From assembly GCA_030998225.1 (NCBI GenBank), contig JAPYXD010000466.1, positions 3,761,001 to 3,825,000 on the forward strand: a stretch of 64,000 nucleotides of DNA, read 5' to 3'. Every line of letters begins with the position of its first letter. Positions within the stretch are counted from its first letter, which is position 1. The position numbers and the translations under genes are program-made. The stretch comes from Diplolepis rosae (lineage: Eukaryota; Arthropoda; Insecta; Hymenoptera; Diplolepididae). This document shows positions 29,057-45,799 of the stretch, piece by piece. The notes beneath the pieces were generated by a model. The model searched no databases. It was given only the letters and a program-made list of their open reading frames with translations, and was not told the origin of the DNA.

Positions 29057-30214
29057 ATGAGTGACTCATCTCTTTCTCCCGAACAACCAACGTACATAAG
29101 AGCAATGACCTCGCCCAGGGCACAATCTCCCAGTCACTTGACTACGGATGAACTATTAACAAGAGTACTATCTCAAATGGAAACATTGACCAATGCATTC
29201 AATTCTCTAAAAAAGGAAAATGATAACCGTATAGAGGAAATATCACAGTTGGCCAGGAAAATAGGATGCTCAGCGGAAGTAGAGACAGATAAAGAAGCAC
29301 CATAATTAGAAATAATAGAAGATACCTGCGATGGAGAACAAGAAGACGGAAGAGTTAACCCAAAAGAAAATATAAACCGATCAAAATTTTGTACACAACC
29401 CACTTACGAAAGCGAAGACCCCATCAATGCTACTATAGCTCTCGAAAGTATAAGAACTTTGAATGGATAAGACGACATAGGAGTAGAAGATTTTGTGAAG
29501 TCAGTAAAAAGAGCCAGAATGAAAACATCACAACCAAATTTATTACTAGATTTGATTATAGCAAAGAAAATTCAGGGATTAGCAAAAAAGGCAATCAGGT
29601 ATCAGCAGATCAACTCTTTTGACGACCTCTACGAAGCATTAAGACAGAACCTTAGACAAACTAGCTCCATATTAGCCCTTATGTCTAAACTGGAATCATG
29701 TAAACAAGGCCTGACCGAAACTGTACAAAATTTCACGTTGCGATTTCGCCAAATAGTAAACGAAATAAACGATGCCATCCAATCACAACACATAAACTTG
29801 ATCGAAAGAAGGTTAAAAATGAAACTCGAAGAACTGGAAGCGGTAAATAGGTACCTACTTAATTTAAAAAAAGAAATCGGAATACAAATTAGATTATTGA
29901 AACCAGCCACCATCAACGAAGCCCAAGCACATGCAGTTGAAACAGAAACGTGGATAAGAGAAAACCAGCCAACACGAATAACCACGCCTAAAACTGTTAT
30001 GACAAGTAAATTTATCAAACCGCAGGTATTTAGACCAAGTGCAAACACAACTAGTAACAGAATACCCAATAAAAGTCTGCCGTTACTAGATGGAACAAAA
30101 ATGAACTGTAACAAGTGTTGCAGAATAGGACACCTGGCCAACCAATGTTATAAACAGGGTTTTCAGGTTGGTCAAAATATAAAAAGACCCCCACAGCCAA
30201 TAAGAATAATATAA
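29057..30214 (+). pseudogene. G2 gag
   Basis: Frames 29057-29305 and 29495-30214 encode a Ty3/gypsy-type gag: a coiled N-terminal region (MSDSSLSPEQ..., LSQMETLTNAFNSLKKEN), a capsid region and a CCHC zinc knuckle CNKCCRIGHLANQC near 30107-30148. In-frame stops near 29303 and 29470 break the first half. Confidence 0.75.
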
Positions 30215-30234
30215 GAAGAGGAAACAGAGAAAGA

Positions 30235-33200
30235 ATGGATGTCCCAGGAAGAAATACAAGAGCAATCAAGGTACGAGGAATCAGCAGAATATCAACTGTT
30301 AGCGGAAGACTTAGATCAATCCATGCAAAAATAAGAACCGGAGAATACCGTCTATTGGTTGATACAGGAGCAGCAATAAATATAATAAATGAAAAAACTC
30401 TGGACAAAAAGGATGAGAGAAAAGAATGCGAGAAAACCTTTTCTATGGGAAAAGATGTACATATATCAAAACAAAAAACCACTCTAAATTTTTTTAATAA
30501 GGAGCAAACTTTTTACATAGTACCAGATGACTTTTCATTACCTGAGGAAAGAATAATCGGAATAAACTTCCTCTCTCAATACGACAGATCCTCTATAACA
30601 CCAAAATATCTGATAATAGATCAAATAAAACTACCAATATACGAAGATGGGGAATTCGTTTTGCCCAACTCAGAAAAAATATGTAAAATAAAAATAAAAG
30701 AAGAAGTGAATCAGGGCATCCTAATTTTGGATCAGGAAAATATCCCTGATGGTATTTACAGAGCTAATGAAGGATTTGTAAAAATCTCTATACGAAATAA
30801 TACCTCGAATCCACTACAAGTAAAAAATAACATAGAGAAATATGAATCGATTTTTGAAATTAGAGAAAAAGAGGAAACAGCACTCCAACATAATGAAAAC
30901 ATACACCAGAGAACATTACAAATATTGCAATCATCAAAACTAAATCACTTAGAACCAGAACAAAGAGAAATTATCGAGAAATTAATAGCGCAATACCAAG
31001 AAGTATTCTCGATCGATACCGAGCCCTTACCCTGTACAGATCTGACTGAACATGAAATAACATTAAAATCTGGAAAAATCATAAATTTAAGATCACATAG
31101 GCTACCAGATAAACACAGAGAATTTTCGCTGGAAGAAACTAATAAATTATTTGAAAAGGGAATCATTAGGGAATCACAGTCCCCATATAACTCCCCACTT
31201 TTGATAGTACCAAGAAAGGGAAACAAATTATGAATGGTCATAGACTACAGGAAAATCAATGAGAACACCGATCAAGACGCCTACCCACTACCAATTATAG
31301 ACGATATATTAGATTAACTAGGAAATGCAAAATTCTTTTCTGCCTTTGACCTCTCCGCAGGATTTCACCAGATCCCCATGAGAGAACAAGATAAGAAATA
31401 CACAGCATATTCTACTTCACAGGGACATTTTGAGTATAATAGGATGACTTCTGGACTCAAAAATGCCCCCGCAACGTTCCAGAGAATAATGGATAATGCA
31501 TTCCGAGGACTGATAGGAAATAAATGTTTTGCGTACATCGACGATATTGTGATATTCGGAAAAACACTAGACCAACAGAATCAAAATTTAGAAGAAGTGC
31601 TCCAGAGAATAAAGGAATTAGGACTGAGACTGGAGCCGACTAAGTGCGAATATTTGAAACCTGAACTCGAATACTCAGGACATATTATAACTAAAGAAGG
31701 GGTAAAACCCAATCCTGAAAAATTAAGCACGATACAAAATTTTAAAAAATTGGAAACCGTCAGGATGTACAATCCTTCTTGGGACTAGATGGATATTATA
31801 AAAAATTTATAAAAAAAACTCTGAATTGCGAGAAAGTATTCTACGACCTAAAAAATGCCTTGATATCTGCGCCAGTCTTGAAATTTCCCAACTTTAAGGA
31901 ACAATTTATTTTAACCACAGACGCCTCAAACTTAGGCTTAGGAGCCGTCTTGAGTCAGAAGGGACACCCTTGCCTATTCATATCAAGAAAATTAAATAAA
32001 GTGGAGGGAAAATATACAACATCGGAAAAAGAACTCTTAGCAATAGTTTGGGCGATGAAAAGACTGAGACAATATTTATTGGGTAATAAATTCAAGATAC
32101 AAACTGACCACAAAGCCCTCGTATGGTTACATAATGTAAAGGACCCAAGCTCAAGACTTTTAAGATGGAGATTACGTATGGAGGAATACGACTACGATAT
32201 TGAATATGTGAAAAGAAAGGAGAATAGAGTAGCAGATTGTGTCTCTCGATTATTTCCAATAAACGATAACGATATCCTTAGGCAGACAATAGCAAACGCA
32301 GAATTAAACTTAGACAGCGGGAAAACGAGTAAAAAAATGTTGGAACACATAGAAAGCAATTTACAAGAAATAAAACCTACAGGAAATCGCAAGTCAACGG
32401 TTATAGAAGATAGGATTTTAGAAAATGAAGAAAAAATCAAGATTCCTCACAGAAAAATACGGGAACCCCCGATAGAAGAAAAAACCCCGTCAACGAGCCA
32501 TCCCAGTAATTCCGTATACAGCGATTTCATAGAATGGAAACTAAACCCATCCTATGGGAAAGTCAAAACAAAACCAAATGCCGTAAGCAAACTATGAAAA
32601 GAGATAAAAAAGGAAGATATGCCGCCATATACCGAAGAAGAATGGTTGACAAAACTCACCTGGACCATAGAAGAAATAGAAAACAAAAAACTGACAATAA
32701 TAAGACTAATTTTCGGAGATCCGTTGTTTACACCAATTGAAAAAGAGAGTATTCAAGAATTGATAGAATTTTTGACAAACCACTATCCTCACCTAAGTCT
32801 TCATGTATGCTTTTCATCAACCAGAGAATTAACCAAAGAAGAAAAAAAGAAGATAATACAAGAAGCCCATTCCACACACCTTGGGGAAAAGAATACTATA
32901 GAGAAAGCCCGTAAAACAGCAATATGGAATGGAATGGACGAGTACATAAAAAGATTTGTGCAATCCTGTCCAATTTGTCAACTTCAAAACACAGTACGAA
33001 TAAAAAATCAAGCCGAGAGTATAATCCCACATATACCACTTGCCCCAAACGAAAAAATATCGTTGGACATCTTTGGACCACTTCCGATAACCAAGAAGGG
33101 AAACAAATACATACTAAGCATTCAGGATAAACTAACACGTTACATTGTGCTAATACCACTACAAGACGAAACATCGAATACTATAGTAGAAGCACTCTTA

Positions 33201-33690
33201 GATCACAGCATTTATACATTCGGAGCACCTAAGAATATTTTAACAGACCAAGGAACCAATTTCTTATCAGAACTGGTAACATAATGTTAAGAAGCTTTAA
33301 AGATAAAGCATATAAAAACTACATCATTCCATCCACAATCAAACGGCAATATAGAACGAATGTAGTCCATGATATTAAACCTTATCAAAACAAGTATAGC
33401 TGAAAATAATAGAGAATGGGATGATAACATAAAAATAATAAATTTTACTATAAATACTACGCCAAATCAAACTACGAAATTCACACCATACGAGTCAACG
33501 TTTGGAAGAAATCCCAATGTTCCATCGGCATTAAGAACATCCACCAATCTCACCCACCAAGACTTGATAAGAAAATGGAAAAAGAAACACGAAGATACTG
33601 TGAGAAAAGCTAAAGAAAGTATACAGTTGGAAATGGAAGAAAAAAAAAAGATTGGACGAGAACATCACACGAAAACACCCCGTTTATAAA
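30235..33690 (+). pseudogene. G2 pol: protease, RT, RNase H, integrase
   Basis: Protease: LLVDTGAAINII (about 30353). RT spans about 31020-31760, with FSAFDLSAGFHQIP, GLKNAPATFQRIM and CFAYIDDIVIF. RNase H: LTTDASNLGLGAVLSQ (about 31910) and QTDHKALVWLH. Integrase: HHCC finger (about 32865-32980), SLDIFGP (33063), LTDQGTNF (33239) and the Glu region near 33345. Breaks in pol: TGA at 31231-31233, TAA near 31315, a frame change near 31770, a stop near 32595, and a stop and frame change near 33282-33370. The order matches errantiviruses. It is broken as a replication unit. Confidence 0.85.
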
Positions 33691-33860
33691 ATCAAGGATA
33701 AAGTAAAAATAATAAACAACACAAAAAATAAATAAATTAGAACAATCCTGGAAAGGCCCTTATGAGATAATAGATTTACTAGACAATAATAATATTGTAA
33801 TTCAGAATAAGGAAAAAATATTGAAGATACATATAGACCAATGCCTGCCTTATTTTTCAG

Positions 33861-34825
33861 ATGATAGTGAAGACGACCTTCCCTCTACTTCTACTAACGA
33901 TCGTTAGGGGCAACTACACCATCAACGATATTGCAAGAAATATATACATTGAAGAAGAAAGTAAAATTCATCTATACCACGAAACTTGGAGACTAATAGT
34001 TGGAATCAATATGACAAATAACAGAGAAAGAATCAGCGCAATAGACAAAACAATATCAATATCAGAACAAGCATGCATTAAAAAGTGCCTACCCCAATAT
34101 GAAATAGAACTCATTCGAAGAAGGTACAATAGACTGATATTTCGAAATTATATATTAACAAAGCTATTAGGAAAACAGCGCAATAAACGAGGATTGGACA
34201 ACTTCGTCAGAGACATCTCTAAAACATTATTTGGAACCTTAAATGAAGGAGACATTGCTCAAATTAATAGCGAATTCGACAACTTATATAGAGATAATAA
34301 AAATATTGCTTCCATCTTGACTAACCATACTAAAATACTTAAGTTGATCCTGGATTCAACCTCAACAAACCATGAATCGACAATGTTGCAGGAAATTTAG
34401 GAAAGAGCGATAGCAAGGAATTTAAGCAATGGAATTAATAAAGCTACACAAGAAAACTTTATAAACAGTAAGCTAGTAGTAGCGGCTCTCTTAATAGTTG
34501 AAATAAACGAAGATATCGATATGGCGACAAACGCTATTAACGATGGAAAACACGGGATTATACATCCTCAAATACTAACACCTGCGATGTTAAAAGAAAC
34601 AATTAAATAATTCGAAAACAACCAGAGAGCAAGATACCAGTTTGATAATAGTGAAGAGAATTATCTACACATAATGGATATAAGTACATTATCAGTAGCC
34701 ATCATAAGAGAACTCTTTACCTACATACTAGAGATTCCGATATTAGAAAAAGAAGAAGGAACGTTATTACATTTGATCCCAACACCACACTTATACCAAA
34801 AAACCTATTTCTCCTTAAGGCGGTA
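33861..34825 (+). pseudogene. G2 env, Baculo-F-like envelope protein, truncated
   Basis: The first frame (33861-34400, 179 codons) has a hydrophobic signal-like start, then a furin-type site RNKR at residues 107-110 followed by GLDNFV..ISKTLFG, the fusion-peptide region typical of errantivirus/baculovirus F proteins. A TAG at about 34398 interrupts it. The frame continues with one further stop (about 34607) and is lost near 34825, where Mutator-like DNA begins. The transmembrane anchor is not seen. It lies about 170 bp after pol with no accessory frame between. Confidence 0.75.
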
Positions 34826-36057
34826 TTCTAGTCTAGAATTTTAAAAAATAGATTTTTTTTCTTTCCCATATTTTTAAAGAATAGACCTTTAAGAATATTT
34901 CCTCCGAAGGGATTTAAAAAAAAATTTAATTATTTACGGAATTATATCTTTTTTAGTGATGCAGCGCGCGAACCGGTCACATGTATTGTCCACCTGGTTC
35001 ATCAAGCTGGTGTAAGTGGCAAAAAGCAGCGGTTGAGGGTACATTAGATGACTTTGTTCACGAAAATCTCCCTCTGAATGACAAAATATTAGAAGCAATC
35101 AAGCCGATATACGAAAGTTTATCCGATGAAAATTTGCTGCACCGTTGTTTGGGCTCGGAAACCCAAAATAACAATGAATCGCTGAATTCATTGATTTGGA
35201 CTTTTGCGCCGAAACACGTTCATGCAGGAAAGAAGACATATGAAATTGCAAATTATTTAGCAGTTTGCATTTTCAATGAAGGCTTTTTACCAATTTTGAA
35301 AATAATAAGCGTCATGGGAATTACAATTGGTCCAGAAGCCCATGCGTTCGCTAGCAAACGGGACGAAACTCGGATACGCCGCTCCGAAGTACGAGCTTCT
35401 GATGCTTCTAAGAAAGCTAGAACTGCTCGTCTAGCAGAAAGAAGCGAAGAAGAAGATCTATTTGAACAAGAGAGGAAGGTCCCATGTATGGAGCAGGAAT
35501 CGCCAATTAACGAAATGTGAGTAAAAACTGCCTGCAACTTTTCTTAAATCTTTAAACGCGTTTTTCTCGAAACTACTTTTTCCAACACGTTTGACATGAT
35601 TTCTCAAGTTCTAATGAACCGATTAACTTGAAATTTGGCGTGGACCTTCTTTATATATCCCTCTATCGTTCAAACTAGGATTATGTGAAAATTTTGATTT
35701 TTACTATTTTTCAAAATTTTAAAACTTTATAGAAAACAGGGCAAAAACAAACTTTTTTTTCAAACAGTCGCCATTTTGTGAAAATTTTTTTTTTGTTTTT
35801 TTTCCCTATTTCAGGCGATAGCGATATTCTTACTCGTTAAGAATCTATTTTATTTTTTTTTTTAGATCACCAGAAGGGTTGGAATTGTGTCAATATGGAC
35901 GCACCCTTTTTTTCACCCCCGCCACTTTCACCAGCCTGTAGCTTTGTCAATTTTCAAATTTTTTTGATTTTTAATTTTTTTGTATTGTTAAAATATTAAT
36001 AAATATTTCATAAAAAATGGATCGTAAAAATATTTTTAGTTTTTACATTCTCATCAT
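34826..36057 (+). mobile_element. Mutator-like (MULE) transposase fragment and 3' flank
   Basis: The frame 34981-35520 (179 codons) reads CPPGSSSWCKWQKAA, then LLHRCLGSETQNNNESLNSLIW and a basic/acidic tail. A SWCKWQ motif followed by a TQN-NESxNSLIW motif is common in arthropod transposase-like proteins that I associate with the Mutator superfamily, and this is their C-terminal part. The catalytic core is absent. The element seems to have landed in or replaced the end of the G2 env. The 500 bp after the stop are AT-rich with no gene. Confidence 0.5.
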
Positions 36058-37225: not shown

Positions 37226-37813
37226 TTAATAATAATTTAATAATAACGAATATTGCGATTCTATTTTGTTGATAGTTTCATTAAATTCTTTTTGAAGGAT
37301 TTGTATTTGGTTAGTTTTCTTGGTTAAATCTTGGTGAATATTATTCACTTCTGCTTTTATTATGTGGATTTGTTTTCCAATTATTTTACTGATGTTATTT
37401 TGCTTTTCATAAATATCATTTATTGCTTCGTTGTATTCCTGTGCGTCGTCGGAAGTCATGACTCCTATTACTGGTCCTAGAATGCTGCCTATGAATCCTA
37501 GAAGAGGTGCTCTTCGCCTAAGCATGGTCCTGGGAGGGATTATTTCATGGGGTATGTCCTGGTGTAATTACATTAATATTGTACTTAAATCCTCATTTAT
37601 AGTTTCAAGTTGATGTAGCTTTTCATTGAGGCTATCCAATTTTATAATATCTTTGCAATTAGTACTTTTCAGTCGATTTGGGCATATCTTGTAGATTTTC
37701 TGAATTTCTGATTTTATTTTGTCGAATTGAATATGCTCCTGTAGTTTTTGGGGGTCCATGAATAGTATTCCTGTACAGATCATTGTTGCTTGGCCTAGGA
37801 TCTGGGCAATCAT
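37226..37813 (-). pseudogene. G3 env, Baculo-F-like envelope protein, truncated
   Basis: Two minus-strand frames. 37813-37568 begins with a hydrophobic signal-like segment and has cysteines (ICPNRL..NCKDII). 37525-37226 carries an RRR cleavage-like site followed by a hydrophobic glycine-rich fusion-peptide region and then a heptad-like helix. This is the Baculo-F/errantivirus env layout. A frame change separates the two pieces, and the C-terminal half with the membrane anchor is missing at the junction near 37220. Confidence 0.75.
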
Positions 37814-38501
37814 CCTGTTGTTTGTCTACTTGTCTACAAAAGTAAGGTTTGTGTTAGAATTTTATCAAATTTTTATCAGGGATGTTATCTTCTGTTACTT
37901 TATTGTGTTGATAAGGGAAGAAAGAATAAGGCAACCTCCATATCCTCTCCCTTGATTTCTTTATTCCCTTATTTTCGTGAACTCAGAATATGCCGACGTG
38001 AAACAAGAAAAAAAAAATTATTAAATATAAAAGTGATGTAATTATATATAAGAATATGAAATAGTTAATGAGTTTTTGAGACTACCAATCAATTGCATAA
38101 ATTTTATCAAATACTATAGGTGTTTTGGGATTTGAATTATTGCTTGAACTTTTTATGTTTAAACTCTTTCAAATTTATTTTACAAAGTTTGTATAGATAG
38201 GTATAATATAATTTGTACATTGGTATAATGGTAATGTACGACTAATCTAGTTATAATGTGTATCTGAGAAATTATCTATAATACTAGTAGTGATATATGG
38301 TATGAATCATGAGTAATGCTAACTAATTATAACTTTGTTAATCCTATAATGTATAGCTTTATAAGTTGAAAGATAATAATGAAGATGTTTGTTTGTTATA
38401 ACATTAGTGGTAATGCGTCTGTCGATGCATAGTAGGGGTTTCCTAGCGAATTTTACTAGCTAAGTTGTATTCTATGAATTTCATATTGAAGGAAGACTTC
38501 T
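37814..38501. other. AT-rich spacer between G3 accessory frame and env
   Basis: About 690 bp with no open frame longer than chance and no recognised motif. Confidence 0.5.
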
Positions 38502-39093
38502 CTAGGGCGTCAGATAGATAAGATTTGTATTTTCATCCCCTTGTGGAGGACCCCAGAAGTCTTCTTCAGTATATTCCTGATCGTCGGGAAGCCGCTTGTT
38601 TCGTTTAATTTGTTTTTTACAATTTGCCATAGTATGGCCCCTCAAATAACAGTATTCGCAGCAAGTTTCCCATTTGTACAATTTGATTAATAAAGTCGCG
38701 GGGTTGTCCATACAAATAACGTACTGTTCGTCCCTACTATTACAATCATTTTTGTGCTCACTAAAAAAATACAGCTTTTCAAGGGCCGTTAACATTTTTC
38801 TCGCGGCCTCATGTTCTGCGCTACGTATTTTTCTTTCCCCGTTGCTTATGGTACTGAATTTATTCTCGCGTCTGCGGTCTTCTACTTCGCACCTAACGAC
38901 GAAAACTTTTGCGTTATCGGCTCCCGTGGTTTCCTCTAATGTGTATTTTGGTTTAGTAAAACTTTACTCTGCCGCCAGCTCCTCTAACTGCCCTTTAGCG
39001 AACCGCAGGTTATTTATCTCCCCTTTTGGATGGAGGGTAGCGGGATATATCTTTCCCTTTGGTGGTTGCGTATTAATGACGGACATGAGTTTC
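38502..39093 (-). pseudogene. G3 accessory gene: dsRNA-binding domain plus CCHC zinc knuckle
   Basis: Read on the minus strand from an ATG at 39086, the frame runs about 40 codons, meets a TAA at 38966-38964, then stays open for 153 codons to 38502. Around and after the stop the sequence has the pattern of a double-stranded-RNA-binding domain: helix 1, KPKYTLEETTG, a DNAKVFVVRCEVED strand pair, then GERKIRSAEHEAARKMLTAL, which matches the basic, Ala-rich helix 2 of the family. About 30 residues later comes the CCHC knuckle CEYCYLRGHTMANC, and G3 gag itself shows no knuckle. A TACTAAC (39117-39111) and a pyrimidine-rich acceptor ending at 39094 lie just before the ATG. Role inferred: RNA binding, perhaps silencing suppression. 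The stop makes this copy non-functional as it stands. Confidence 0.7.
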
Positions 39094-39117
39094 CTGTAAA
39101 AGAAAATTGGGTTAGTA
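39094..39117 (-). promoter_or_regulatory. Candidate branch point and 3' splice site before the G3 accessory gene
   Basis: The minus strand shows TACTAAC followed by CCAATTTTCTTTTACAG, a textbook branch point and 3' splice site, 8 nt before the accessory ATG. Errantiviruses make env from a spliced subgenomic RNA, so this site could deliver the accessory frame the same way. Confidence 0.55.
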
Positions 39118-39127
39118 ATTTTAAATT

Positions 39128-42100
39128 TTAGTAGTGTACTAACTTAAGTTTGTTAAAATGTTTCTGGAATAGTTTTCCGTCGGGTTTTTCCAAGATGGCG
39201 TTGTTTTTGTCTAATATTTTTATAAGGGTGTAGGGGCCATGATATTTACTATCCAATTTCCCGTGCGTTTTAACTTCCCTTTGGACGTATACTTGATCTC
39301 CTACATTTCCTAAAAATGGCCTTACCTTTCGGTCATAATTTTCTTTTGAGTGTTCCTTCGCGGTGATCAAACTTTTTGCTGCTATTAATTAATTTGCGAA
39401 GGGTAGAAGTTGGTCCCAATCGTCGTAGGTTTCTGCATACGTCCTTGTGTAATCCATTAATACGGCATGGGTCCTTTCCAGGGATCCGTTTGATTGCGGT
39501 CTATATCCAGAGATGGTAACTTGTTTTACCCCGAAAATTTTTGATAATTTTCTGAGTAAATTATTGATGAAACTTCCTCCCCTGTCTGTGAGTATGGCTC
39601 TCGGGGCTCCGTATTGTGAGAATAAGTGTTTTGCTATTGCATGAGCGATAGTAGTTGCCGAAATATCCGGTATGGGGACGGCTATGCAGTACTTAGATAA
39701 ATTGTCCTGCATAGTGAGAATATGTTTATTACCGTCAGGGGTGGTAGACAATTTTCCTACTGTGTCTAAGGATACTTTGTCGAAGGTGTCGAGGGGTGTA
39801 TCGGTGATTAACATGGGTTCGTGAATTTTTGCCCGTACAATTTTTTGTTTCTGGCAAATGTCACATGTTCTGACAAATTCAGTAACTTGATCTTTTAGTC
39901 CTGGCCACATGTATCTTTCTCTAATTCTTCGATACGTTTTATTTATGCCTTTGTGACCCCCAATTTTACTCTCATGATTTTCAGAAATAATTTGAGTACG
40001 TACCTCCTCTGGAAGTATATTTACGTTGCCATAACATATCGTTATTTCTATTTTTGAATTAGTGAATTCTTGAGTTAGTATCTCGCGCAATTTTCCTTTT
40101 GGTAATGTGTCACTAAAATCTCCATGTTTTGAAATGCGAAATCCCGAAATATTTTCCTTTTCTAAAGCTATTCTCAAATTATGTACGGCTACTCTAACGT
40201 ATTCTTCGTTTATTTCATCAAAATGGTTTTGTTTAACTATGAGTGAATATATGTTAAAGTGTTTATGAGGGGTGATAAGCACTTCCCCTATTTTAGGTTT
40301 CCTATCTTTCAGGTCCTGAGGGTCTACTGCTCCCAGGTCCACTAGTAGTCGGCTCACGGGGGTGACAAACTCACAGTCAGCCGAGAGAAAATGTACATAG
40401 TTATTCTTTAAATAAGTGAGATTCTCTCGACAGCTATTTAGTCTGACCGGCACGTTTTTACTACTGTGCGTCTCCGTTCTACTGGACATTTCACAGGCCC
40501 TAGGCAGTGCCGGAGGGATGCAAGTGATTGACGGTCGCGAATGGTCAGACGGCAAACTAGTGGTATCCATGGTAAGTTCGTCTGAGTATGTAGGTATATT
40601 TATTCCCATTCTGCGAGTATTATTTTTGTCAGTTGATAGATTGAAATTAGGGTCGTTATCGAGTTTTTCTGGAAAGGGCGTGGAAATAGCCCTGGGTTTT
40701 CTTAGTGCTGAGGGGGTATATTTCCCTAAAGCATCCGGGGTTGAAGCTATTCCAGGGTGAAAAGTGACACTTTTTCTGGTGTGAGCGTGTAAATTTCTGA
40801 CCGGGGCTTCTTCATCTGAGGATGAAATACCCGGGTCCAGATTTTCCTCAATTTCGGAATTTGTCACCTTTCTTTTTTCCTGAGTCTCTTTTAGTATTTC
40901 TTCAGCTATTTTTATAGCTGATTCAATTCTGTTCGTGAATTCGGTCTCGCTTTCAGGTTCCATTTCTTCAATGGCATCAAGGAGCTCTTGATTATTTTCT
41001 CCTTCCGAAACTGCTGTGACTTCAAGAAGTGGGGCTTCTTCATTCACTTCTGTCTTCTCCAGCCAGTCTTCATGTGCCTTCAAGGATTGTTTAAATCGTG
41101 AAAATGATTTCTCTATATTTTCTTTAGTGGAATCAGGCCTTTTTTGTTCCATCTGGTCTGTTTCCTGTTCTTCTTCTGTCATACTGTCATCACTGTCGCT
41201 GGGTGGCGGACTCACCGTTTTAATGGGTCCTGCTTCTTGCTTTTCGGTCATAGGGGTTAACTCTTCCTGATCTTCTGGGAAGAATTCAGTTGAGCACTCT
41301 GGTGCTTTTGCCGGTGCACTCTTAGGTATTGTTGACGATGGGTACGCTGCAGGTGGTAAATTCAGGCTCGGTAACATACTTTTTCTTTTTCTGAGGATTG
41401 GGGGTGGTTCTTGATCCTCTTCTGTGTTTTCCGAACTACTATCTTCTTTATAATCTGGTCGATTCTGAACTCGTTGAGTCTCTATCCGTCGCCTAATCAG
41501 GCGTTTAGTGATGGTGCTCCTGTCCAGATCAGCTGATGTTGATGCACTAGATTTAGACCTAGCAAGGGTTGGTTTTTGAGGTTTGGAAGTAGATGGTTTA
41601 GAAGGTAAAATCCTAGACGTGAATCCTTTTTTAGTCTGAACCGCGGGTTTATTCTTGGCTTCAGGTTTTGAACCAAGCTTCGTGCTATTTTCCTCTCGTT
41701 TATTAGCTTGCCTAGTCAACATTGGCAGTAACCTGGCAGTCTGTTTTTCTTCTTTGCCTTCTTTGTCAGAATTTTCTACGATTGGATTTCTTGATAGGGC
41801 ATCAGCATTAGTATTTAATTTTCCTGGTTTGTATTTAAATTCATATTCGTAGTTTCTTAATTTTAGTCTCCAGCGAATCAGTCTTTGGCCTGGATCTTTT
41901 ACAGAATCTATCCACCTGAGGGGCTCATGGTCGCTCATGAGGGTAAATTTTCTTCCATAAATGTAGGGTCGAAATTGTTGTACCGCGTAAAGCACCGCAA
42001 GGCATTCCTTCTCCGTGGTAGAATAATTTAATTCAGGTCCAACTAACACCCTTGACATATATGCTACAGGGTATTGTAATATGGGGCTTTCGCACAGAGC

Positions 42101-43312
42101 CTGTCGTAAATCCTTGAAGCTCTTCTCTTCCTCCGGTCCCCATTTAAATACTACTTCCTTTTTTAATAAATTTGATAGAGGCTTTGCTCTTGCTGAGAAG
42201 TCCCTGATGAATCTTCTGTAATATCCAGCTAGTCCTAGGAATTGTTTTATGTTTCTTGGTGTTTTTGGTCTGGGAAATTTTTGAGCAGCCTCGATCTTTT
42301 TAGGATCTGGCTTTACTCCTTTGTCTGTAATTATGTGCCCTAAATATGCTATTTCCTTGAAAAGAAATTCGCACTTTTCCGGTTGTAGTGACAGATTGGC
42401 TTCTTTCAGTTGCTTGAGAAAACGTCTTACCTTTTTTCCGTGATCTTCTAAATCTTTTGCGTATATTACTATGTCGTCCAGGTAGACAAATAGTTCTGTC
42501 CCCTGTAGCCCTAATAGGACTTGGTCCATTAGGCGCTGGAATGTAGCCAGTGAATTTTTCAATCCCATGGGCATTCTGACGTACTCATAATGCCCATTCA
42601 ATGATGAAAATGCTGTTTTTTGTCTATCATTCGGATCTAGTTCTATTTGGTGGAAACCACTGGTCAGATCAAAAATAGAGAAATAATGTGCAGTACCTAA
42701 GTGATCTAAAATATCTGCAATATTTGGCAATGGGTATGCATCCCCAATTGTTTTCTCGTTTAGAAGCCGAAAGTCAATTACTATTCTCCATTTCTTCTTT
42801 CCTGTGGCGTCTATCTTTTTGGGTATAATCAGTAGGGGTGAGTTATAAAGAGATTTTGAGTTTTGAATTGCTCCTTCCGTCTTCATTTTTTGTATTAGTC
42901 TCTCAACTTCTTCCCTTTGAGAGGGTGAAAATCGGTATGGTCTGGTGTTAATAGGTACGTCGTCCAAGGTGTGAATTCTGTGCCGTACTAAATGAGTAGG
43001 GTTTAGGGATTCTCCTGGAAGATAAAAATTATCAGGAAAGTCTCTAATTATTTCTAGTACGTGTTCCTTTTTCTCGGGGTTTGAATGATCTAGTCGAAGG
43101 TGTTTTATCACCTCTTCAGCCTTATTTACTGGGGGTGAATAATCTTCGTCGGTAGAGTATTCGTCGCAATCCTCTCTTGGAAATTTATAATATTCAAAGG
43201 GGATGATTTCTTGCGGGGGTATTTCTATTTCGAGGTCATCATCGGTGGTGTTAATAGCGAATACATGACAAATTCCATTCGAGTTGGTTACGGCTGCTTC
43301 GCCTAATAGCAA
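39128..43312 (-). pseudogene. G3 pol: RT, RNase H, long acidic spacer, integrase
   Basis: A single open frame of 1307 codons (43312-39389), plus a separate integrase C-terminal frame (39370-39128: KYHGPYTLIKILD). RT is at residues about 120-370, with FDLTSGFHQIEL and FVYLDDIVIY (YLDD 277-280). RNase H runs to ADALSRNP (503-510) but lacks about 28 residues after ILQYP (415), including the TDAS aspartate. Residues 511 to about 960 are a low-complexity Ser/Glu/Pro-rich spacer. In the integrase the HHCC finger is H1113, H1120, C1150, C1153 and the catalytic triad is D1183, D1243, E1279, with 35 residues between the last two. After residue 1307 a stop follows and roughly 70 residues of the usual integrase linker are missing. 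It would make inactive RNase H. Confidence 0.85.
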
Positions 43313-43345
43313 GCCTTCTGTAGTTTTTATTAAGGGTAAGTACCC

Positions 43346-43793
43346 TTATTTTAATTCTGAATTTATCACTGCTATTGGGTTAGCTCGTCGAGTCCTGGCT
43401 CTTACCTTGATTGGTCCTAGTAGAGGTTCTTTGTAATCTGTGGTATTTTCTAACGCTACTCTAGATTCATTGTCTATGAACGGTATAGGTTTTGTGGGGT
43501 TGGAATGCGTCACAATAGTGTTATGCCAAAAGGATATTTCCACCTTCTCTTGTCGAAGATATTCTCGACCTAATATACAACATGAAGAGTGATTTTAGAT
43601 TTCATTAATTCGATGTTTACAGTGCCTATGGTCGAAATTCTACTTTGTGTGATTCCTGTAATTTCTATTGCTTCATTTTCATTAACCAGTAGGTCCTCAT
43701 CTAAAGCATCTAATTTAATAACATTTATGTCTGCACCTGTGTCCACTAGAAACCTTGCCTTTGACTGTAAAAGTTCCTTTGACGAAAGCTCTA
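43346..43793 (-). pseudogene. G3 protease region
   Basis: The minus strand contains ARFLVDTGADINVIKLDALD (about 43753-43690), a retropepsin active site, followed by ITGI and a flap-like region. Frame changes near 43585 and 43346 separate it from the RT frame, and the downstream piece 43543-43346 reads as the protease-RT linker. Confidence 0.75.
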
Positions 43794-44930
43794 CTACTGG
43801 GGATTCTCGACTGAGTTTGGTACAGAAGATTTTTCTCGCTTCTTGAGAAATCTCACGCTGTTCTGACGCTCTGTTTTCTCCACGCTCGTCGTCGCGTCTG
43901 TTCGGCGAGCGGAGTCGAAGTTTAAATCATTTTTATTAGCTGGAGCGGGTGATTGTGCTCTCGGGGGTGTATTAGTTCCTTTATATGGGTAATTGTGATT
44001 AGGGTAAGGGTTGTTTGATGCGAGCGAACCTGGGTAGTACGGATAAGGTTGATAGGGTAAATAAGGTGGGTATTGAAATGGGGGTGCGTAATTATTTGGG
44101 TAATTAGGCACTATTGGTGATGTAGGTCTCCTTATTATCCCTGTTGGTCCTTGTCTGGATTCCATTGCTCTATTCCTATCCGGTGATGACGCAAACCTAA
44201 CATGAGGGCTCGGGCTTCTATCTCTTGGTCCTATATAAGGTGTGGAATATCGATTTTCCGCAATATTATTGATAGGAAAATGTGGGTTTAATTGATGTCG
44301 AGCCTCATACTCGAGTGCGTATTTTAATGGTGCTTCTAATGACGAGGGATTCCGTGATTCCACCATTCCTGATATTACATCGGGTAGTCCTCGGATGAAA
44401 GCCTCTAAGGCGCAATCATTTAAGGGTAGTAGCATTTACTCCGCGTGCTGATATTTATGTTTTAACGCCGCTTGAGCTCCGGATTTTAATAGGGTAATTC
44501 TGTCGTAGAACTCGCTTACGCTTTCGCTGCGAGACATCCTAATTGTGGATATTTCATGCACATACCACGAGTAAGTTTTGTGGGGGGCAAAACGCTGTTT
44601 GAGATTCTGTATTAAATCGCTTATTGTGGAAAATATTTTTCCGTGAGTACTATCTCTTGCAGCACCCTTTAATCGCGCTAGTACCGCCATTATGTACTGC
44701 CTTTCGCAATTTGCAGGTACACTGGATTCTCCGTTTAGAACATCTTGAATAAAATCTCTAACTGGCATATTTTTTCCGTTAAAAGTGGGTATATTCATCA
44801 CTCCTTGCTGTATAGCAAAACATTCCGCCATTGAAGTGACCATGGCGTCACTAAGGGTGCGTGAGATGTTCCCTGTGAACTCTCCACCCTGCGTTTTGCC
44901 ATGAGTGGTACTATTTTTGTCGTGAGGCAC
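43794..44930 (-). pseudogene. G3 gag, one in-frame stop
   Basis: Starts at ATG 44930 (MPHDKNSTTHGKTQ). Capsid-like residues VMNIPTFNGKNMPVRDFIQD and a helical region follow, with a TAA at 44438-44436. The same frame continues at once (MLLPLNDCALEAFIRGLPD, as in capsid C-terminal domains) into a Pro/Tyr-rich tail ending at 43794. Apart from that stop the gag is intact over about 378 codons. No CCHC knuckle is present, which is usual for errantiviruses. Confidence 0.8.
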
Positions 44931-45799
44931 TTTGATTTATTTTTAGTTATTCGGCAAGTTAAATGCAATCCGTTATAATATAGTTTTTCCAGAAAACGGG
45001 AGTTTCGAATGCTCCTTGTGTGTGAAATTATATTGAATTTAATACCTGATACTCAATTTCGATTATTAATAAAAAAAAACCGACTTTTTCAAAAATTAAT
45101 TAAATTAATTAAATTAATTATTATTAATTATTCATTATTATTCATTAAAAAATTAATAAATTAATTAGATTGCCAGTGTAATGCCAAAATTTGTTTTTGA
45201 AACAAAATTGTTTTTGTAATTAGTCCTTCCAAAATTAGGTTGCCCTATATAAAATGCTTATTGTTTTTAATTATTATAATTATATCGATTTTTATTTCCA
45301 GTATTGTAATTTTTCTAAGAAATATTTAGACTTTGTCCGGAATATTTATTTTGAAAAGAGTTGGAAATGATTTTCCAATTACTCCGGACATGCCTGTACC
45401 TATTTCTGGATTTATAATGTTGAATTCGATTTCTTGCTTTAATATGGGGATTTTTACTACACCACTTGTTGTAAGGGTGGCGTTGTGTATAATGTAAATT
45501 TTGAGATGATGATGATGTTATTGATGATGGCAGAGCTTGTGATCACACGAAGTATACCAACGCTTAAAATAAGATAATTTATTTTAAGATTTTAGTCCTA
45601 AATATTTAAATTTTGACAAGTAGAAATATGTTATCCAATTATTTCTACTAAACTTATAATTTTGTAATTTTGAAAATTCCTAAAATTTGAAGCTTTATTT
45701 ATGTACAATTTTTAATCGAAATAATTGCACATATAATTTTGATTAGCTTCAATTAAATATTTTTTAAAATTATTATCAATTGTGACAACAAAAGTGACA
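44931..45799 (-). other. G3 5' leader
   Basis: Untranslated region between primer site and gag. It contains a TTAATTAAA-type AT run at about 45095-45150 and no frame of note. Confidence 0.5.

Follow-up and report, generated by a model that had tools for sequence, protein, structure and literature searches.

Introduction

The errantiviruses (gypsy and its relatives) are the closest described systems in gene content, and gypsy, the best known of those in insects, has been described with three open reading frames (ORFs), gag, pol and env, with env being expressed from a spliced RNA (PMC4276936). We analysed a stretch of 64,000 nucleotides from Diplolepis rosae (contig JAPYXD010000466.1, positions 3,761,001 to 3,825,000; hereafter, the window), which carries on its minus strand an element sharing with errantiviruses gag, a pol for protease, reverse transcriptase (RT), RNase H and integrase (PR-RT-RH-IN) and, downstream, a baculovirus-F-type env. 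Whereas gypsy has three ORFs, the window lineage has a fourth, selected ORF between pol and env, called the accessory gene here. The name errantivirus-like denotes a likeness by gene content and is not taken from RT phylogeny. On anatomy and selection, it is all but certain that the family consists of errantivirus-like endogenous retroviruses in which a fourth gene separates pol from env. In the open-licence literature, covered by the titles and abstract openings listed and with preprints and subscription journals outside that scope, we found no gene for a double-stranded RNA-binding domain (dsRBD) in an errantivirus or any other long terminal repeat (LTR) element, nor, as far as this coverage reaches, any errantivirus-like element whose accessory gene is under selection.

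A second group of comparable systems is formed by viral suppressors of RNA interference (RNAi) that have a dsRBD, such as 340R of Invertebrate iridescent virus 6 and 1A of Drosophila C virus (DCV). 340R is reported as a proven RNAi suppressor that needs its C-terminal part, and mutation of its K86 or K89 weakened or abolished the activity (PMC4231766). The accessory protein has in common with this group a small size, a single N-terminal dsRBD of related fold and a C-terminal part of 70-90 residues, but differs from 340R in that the KKxAK motif is only partly kept and the C-terminal part contains a zinc knuckle; no common origin of the two is claimed. The proteins TRBP, Xlrbpa and Loquacious have two or three dsRBDs, whereas the accessory protein, which is about 20-32% identical to them in structural alignments, has one dsRBD and the knuckle.

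The accessory frame encodes a dsRBD and a zinc knuckle

The accessory protein of the family has about 195 residues and consists of an N-terminal box, one dsRBD, a conserved middle part (YYFSEE ... IKLYKW), a knuckle of the CCHC type and an acidic tail with EEDFW. In the window copy, its features are as follows:

39086-38502, minus strand: accessory frame, between pol and env, with one in-frame TAA
39086-39084, minus strand: ATG
38967..39086, minus strand: first piece, 40 codons, with the N-terminal box and the start of dsRBD helix 1
38964..38966, minus strand: in-frame TAA that breaks the window copy, inside the dsRBD
38502..38963, minus strand: second piece, 153 codons plus stop (stop codon 38504-38502)
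38775..39002, minus strand: dsRBD, residues 29-104 in the numbering of the relative P0001 (Pfam dsrm; AlphaFold2 model of P0001)
38619..38660, minus strand: zinc knuckle CX2CX4HX4C
38505..38585, minus strand: acidic tail with a conserved EEDFW-type motif

This confirms the observation behind the original prediction, a frame with a dsRBD and a knuckle between pol and env: the peptides it quoted (KPKYTLEETTG, FVVRCEVED and a third), the CCHC pattern, the TACTAAC, the ATG and the single in-frame TAA (38966-38964) are all at their places. It had begun the frame at the open piece, and most of dsRBD helix 1 is encoded 5′ of the TAA, in 39086-38967. Even without that part of the helix, the open piece by itself scored above the Pfam dsrm cut-off (E 2.3e-5, 25.3 bits, cut-off 23); the first piece alone had no Pfam match. 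Six of six relatives in one set exceeded the dsrm cut-off (23.6-41.3 bits), as did five of eight in a second set, with P0054, P0057 and P0059 below it (22.2, 15.2 and 20.7).

The dsRBD assignment is also borne out by structure prediction. The AlphaFold2 model of P0001 has the alpha-beta-beta-beta-alpha fold, with a block predicted local distance difference test (pLDDT) score of 78-93 over residues 31-100, and matches 1di2 with a template modelling (TM) score of 0.92, by target length; a second structure model gave pLDDT values of 75-88. Since the C-terminal half was not resolved in either model, we claim no fold beyond about residue 105. The best profile and fold matches among solved structures include dsRBDs of TRBP, Xlrbpa and Loquacious, and an iridovirus DRBM protein is listed first among the viral fold matches. 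As dsRBDs match each other in fold, these matches do not discriminate between RNA binding and protein binding. The accessory protein could be a decoy at the protein level, whose dsRBD, like dsRBD3 of Loquacious (Loqs) or TRBP, would bind Dicer-2, R2D2 or Loqs instead of RNA, with the acidic tryptophan-containing tail as a second binding motif. We consider this unlikely, because the glutamate of helix 1 (region 1 of a canonical dsRNA-binding dsRBD) is conserved in 24 of 25 rows, and a basic residue occupies position 88 in all 28, which suits RNA binding.

Relatives and genomic copies keep the gene and its place

Three overlapping protein searches (23, 51 and 38 relatives) yielded 59 relatives overall, the weakest with an E of 1.6e-3. 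Full-length relatives have approximately 186-219 residues and keep the same layout down to 36% identity to P0001. Two of the 59 are uncharacterized annotated genes of the figitid wasp Leptopilina boulardi, LOC127287195 and LOC127286104 (44% and 37% identical to P0001, respectively), which have the same full-length layout of PKG box, dsRBD, YYFSEE, knuckle and DEFW tail; the dsrm score of LOC127286104, 22.2, is just under the cut-off of 23, and a literature search with a Leptopilina gene name found nothing. The window piece grouped with P0001, P0002, P0004, P0005 and P0010 in a tree of 31 rows (support 99/98). Several relatives extend beyond the gene: P0048 and P0049 join integrase to part of the accessory protein in one frame, P0050 joins the integrase end to the accessory start across the acceptor-like site described below, and the accessory frame of P0007 continues into DNA resembling that downstream in the window. 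These layouts imply a gene neighbourhood common to the relatives and the window. Neither viral contigs, scanned with the accessory protein, its alignments and the integrase tail, nor prokaryote genomes, searched for the accessory protein, contained a relative, the latter being expected for an animal element.

Within its own genome (757.7 Mb), the gene has at least 150 matches. Among the best 150 of 1470 candidates, which were scored, 109 are 59-100% identical to the query (the window's included) and 41 are 47-51% identical, and 99 have no stop within the match while 51 do (all hand counts); as the scored rows are the best ones, this open share is not that of all copies. The open frames, which the original prediction had proposed to look for, make a natural protein available for study. 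The copies form two subfamilies, A (that of the window) and D, which are about 47% identical to each other. We fetched 40 short loci, 20 per subfamily, chosen mainly from full-length rows, and the integrase tail lies upstream of the accessory gene in 38 of them. The env gene follows downstream in six of the seven longer subfamily-A loci besides the window's (one partial), in one of two further subfamily-A stretches and in all six subfamily-D stretches, so the order of integrase, accessory gene and env, first noted in the window, occurs in both subfamilies.

Two side observations concern the copies. At locus L038 (G000:C154:3972279-3972731), the accessory frame lies within an open frame of 1798 residues that reaches into pol, a fusion that probably arose from a deletion. 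Four matches of equal score (G000:C58:4531765, C239:7097562, C377:319928 and C252:882224), with a frame of 152 residues that is 42% identical to P0035, are perhaps a third dispersed family.

The accessory gene is under purifying selection

We then compared nonsynonymous with synonymous change (dN/dS, NG86 method) in a codon set made of 37 of the 40 loci (three were dropped, as their match began late) and the long piece of the window, with the stops in five sequences masked. As pairs share history and are not independent, the dN/dS values are descriptive. In subfamily A, dN/dS fell from 0.83 (dS <0.05, 11 pairs) through 0.36, 0.23 and 0.20 to 0.18 (dS 0.6-1.5, 44 pairs), and in subfamily D from 0.58 through 0.41 to 0.23 (dS 0.15-0.30, 68 pairs), being 0.18-0.23 wherever dS exceeded 0.15. 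Single ratios at dS <0.05 reached 2.18 (A) and 1.93 (D), and of the 360 pairs between the subfamilies, 357 had a dS that was saturated or not computed. A dN/dS that falls with increasing dS is the pattern expected of a gene that is selected between insertions and free after them. By region, the values for the N-terminus, dsRBD, link, knuckle and tail were 0.40, 0.18, 0.17, 0.16 and 0.22 in subfamily A (103 pairs) and 0.27, 0.26, 0.29, 0.19 and 0.11 in subfamily D (68 pairs), while the integrase tail of the same copies gave 0.19 in A (68 pairs) and 0.39 in D (44 pairs). A profile and fold match, conserved copies and dN/dS values well below 1, indicating purifying selection, were thus all found, where the original prediction had named their lack, or a dN/dS near 1, as grounds for dropping it.

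These results bear on whether the frame could be a chance one or a functionless passenger gene fragment. Such a reading draws on the broken window copy and on the copies with stops among the best 150 of 1470, and it is very improbable and already contradicted by the low dN/dS, by the fixed position in the element and by the relatives at 36-44% identity to P0001, two of them from Leptopilina, that keep the layout. Moreover, had selection been absent, one would expect 7 to 14 stops for three pairs of full-length relatives that are 38-49% identical. We judge the accessory gene to be genuine.

An acceptor-like site precedes the ATG

A strong 3′ splice site directly before the ATG had been part of the original prediction, and a sequence resembling one is present:

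39117-39111, minus strand: branch-point-like TACTAAC
39094..39110, minus strand: pyrimidine tract and AG resembling a 3′ splice site (AG 39095-39094, 7 nucleotides (nt) before the ATG; next base 39093)

The TACTAAC alone is at chance level in the window (8 found, 6.64 expected). The combination of TACTAAC, pyrimidine tract and YAG occurs once on both strands of the window (39117-39094) under a rule that we set ourselves; 100 first-order Markov sequences had 0.17 on average and at most 2. The site is kept in the two divergent subfamilies: of 19 subfamily-A copies, 16 have a YAG at most 16 nt before the ATG and 15 have it at exactly 7 nt, as do all 18 subfamily-D copies (33/37 in total), with letters that differ between the subfamilies. 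This count leaves out three copies whose match began late; those lacking the YAG are L015, L016 and L023. At least 8 pyrimidines stand in the 12 nt before the YAG at 33 of 34 sites (4 at the remaining one), and a loosely defined branch-like sequence is found in 18 of 19 (A) and 18 of 18 (D) copies. Read upstream of the ATG, the residues of P0050, P0026 and P0029 fit the same acceptor-like site by eye. Judging from these sequence features, the accessory protein is most likely translated from a spliced RNA.

A separate message of this kind would also suit a Rev-like or translational factor for expression or export that has structured RNA of the element, nuclear or cytoplasmic, as its target. Complex retroviruses have small RNA-binding proteins from spliced messages. 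Nothing specific points to this role, and we regard it as improbable, slightly more so than a protein-level decoy.

As a separate observation, a donor-like sequence, CAAGTAAGT, is present upstream of gag (46304-46303, minus strand), possibly within the LTR.

The knuckle is kept in the accessory protein and missing from Gag

The strict CX2CX4HX4C pattern is found in 21 of 51 and 27 of 59 relatives, several others ending before the knuckle. In an alignment of 32 rows, its positions are mostly kept (Cys1 24/24, Cys2 21/24, His 23/24, Cys3 22/22), and the knuckle is weakly similar to that of Arc1 (chain 6tap_A, E 0.022). The original prediction had noted a Gag without a knuckle, which we see in both subfamilies: among eight stretches fetched, Gag lacks CX2CX4HX4C in all six other copies with a recognisable gag, as in the window copy. 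The remaining two LTR elements in the window (29471-34844, plus strand; 23314-15694, minus strand) have one and two such knuckles in Gag, and neither matched the dsRBD part of 51 relatives.

These findings support the main rival to a role in RNAi suppression, an RNA chaperone or packaging factor that supplies in trans the knuckle absent from Gag and aids genomic RNA dimerisation, packaging or reverse transcription, while the dsRBD grips structured RNA. Consistent with it are the missing Gag knuckle in both subfamilies and its presence in the two LTR elements without a dsRBD match, the conserved knuckle positions, the resemblance of the knuckle to that of Arc1 and the low knuckle dN/dS. However, a protein from a spliced RNA stands outside the Gag polyprotein, its net charge is near zero, a strict knuckle is absent from 12 of the 33 relatives extending to the LYK motif (some because they are shortened), and no correlation can be drawn from only three types of element; to our knowledge, Drosophila gypsy has neither a CCHC Gag nor an accessory gene, which we also count against it. 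This role is the rival with the most support and, in our estimate, rather unlikely.

The EEDFW-type motif of the acidic tail is found in 22 of the 27 relatives with a strict knuckle among the 59, with a nearly constant tryptophan and a low dN/dS, and is a possible binding motif.

A possible role against the siRNA pathway

We propose that the accessory protein would be made from a spliced subgenomic RNA, apart from Gag-Pol, like env in gypsy, that it may bind the element's double-stranded or structured RNA, and that its main benefit would be to deny Dicer-2 and its loading partners access to such RNA or to the small interfering RNAs (siRNAs) produced from it. From the sequence and structure comparisons, we put this whole chain at a probability of about 0.45. 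Suppression of the siRNA pathway appears likeliest because of the likely separate message, the lone N-terminal dsRBD, the C-terminal part like that of 340R and the matches to dsRBDs of the RNAi pathway. The broader proposal, that insect endogenous retroviruses encode a dsRBD suppressor of the siRNA pathway, selected through at least two subfamilies and with relatives in a parasitoid wasp, is slightly more tentative, and the suppressor and chaperone roles may both be true. The original prediction had included silencing by PIWI-interacting RNAs (piRNAs) among the possible targets, which is unlikely, since piRNAs do not arise through cleavage of dsRNA by Dicer and their pathway does not rely on dsRNA; of the two, only siRNA silencing is a fitting target. 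If true, the proposal would mean that the element itself embodies the arms race between RNAi and retroelements. An accessory gene that is under selection and encodes an RNA-binding fold would bring some insect elements nearer to complex retroviruses, and it gives a direct handle on whether retroelements actively resist small-RNA silencing or only escape it.

Several results weigh against suppression of the siRNA pathway. In the GPxH loop (region 2), G is kept in 18, P in 13 and H in 12 of 26 rows, all three being complete in 6 of 26 by eye, and the histidine is mostly N in the window's subfamily. The KKxAK at the start of helix 2 (region 3) is only partly kept, with I/L (26/28), R/K (28/28) and E (24/29) at its basic places 87, 88 and 91. 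Net charges range from -8 to +7 in 16 relatives, so that the protein is not strongly basic, and the most-conserved columns often lie outside the dsRBD (8 of 11 in one alignment, 10 of 18 in another). Selection is purifying with no sign of fast change, and immune antagonists often change fast. No donor was identified for the acceptor-like site, and genomic copies of a spliced RNA, sought with patterns covering only part of the possible leaders, gave no match to pattern V at -5 to -7 and three to pattern R at -8, which resemble ordinary pre-ATG sequence, one with the AG changed. We did not adopt a loss of dsRNA binding from the KKxAK change alone, because bacterial RNase III dsRBDs can also have E at the third place.

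Other features of the window element

The element reads, on the minus strand, gag, protease, pol, accessory frame and a 3′-truncated env remnant:

43794..44936, minus strand: gag, two pieces around a stop at 44436-44438, without a CCHC knuckle
43570..43926, minus strand: protease (Pfam RVP, 21.1 bits, cut-off 20.7)
39128..43345, minus strand: pol, with RT, RNase H and integrase (Pfam RVT_1, RT_RNaseH, Integrase_H2C2, rve)
39391-39389, minus strand: in-frame TAA in pol, which cuts off the integrase tail
37226..37825, minus strand: env remnant, split in two by a stop at 37568-37570 and lacking its 3′ end

The second env piece matches Pfam Baculo_F (27.9 bits, cut-off 24.1), and the errantivirus gene set of gag, pol and baculovirus-F-like env is thereby present. 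The copy itself is dead, with stops in gag, pol, the accessory frame and env alike. A possible tRNA primer-binding site, TGGTGGCAGCGGTGGGA, lies at 45817-45801 (minus strand).

The pol gene also contains a macrodomain-like region between RNase H and integrase (40399-40037, minus strand). A Pfam search of this region gave no macrodomain match, and the window sequence alone reached only E 0.41, whereas a profile built from the window and five other copies, out of eight that matched among nine fetched, matched O-acetyl-ADP-ribose deacetylase 1 (C6orf130) with E 6.7e-07 over profile positions 54-174 of 181. A lysine and an aspartate, which we take to be catalytic in C6orf130, align with K and D of the pol region.
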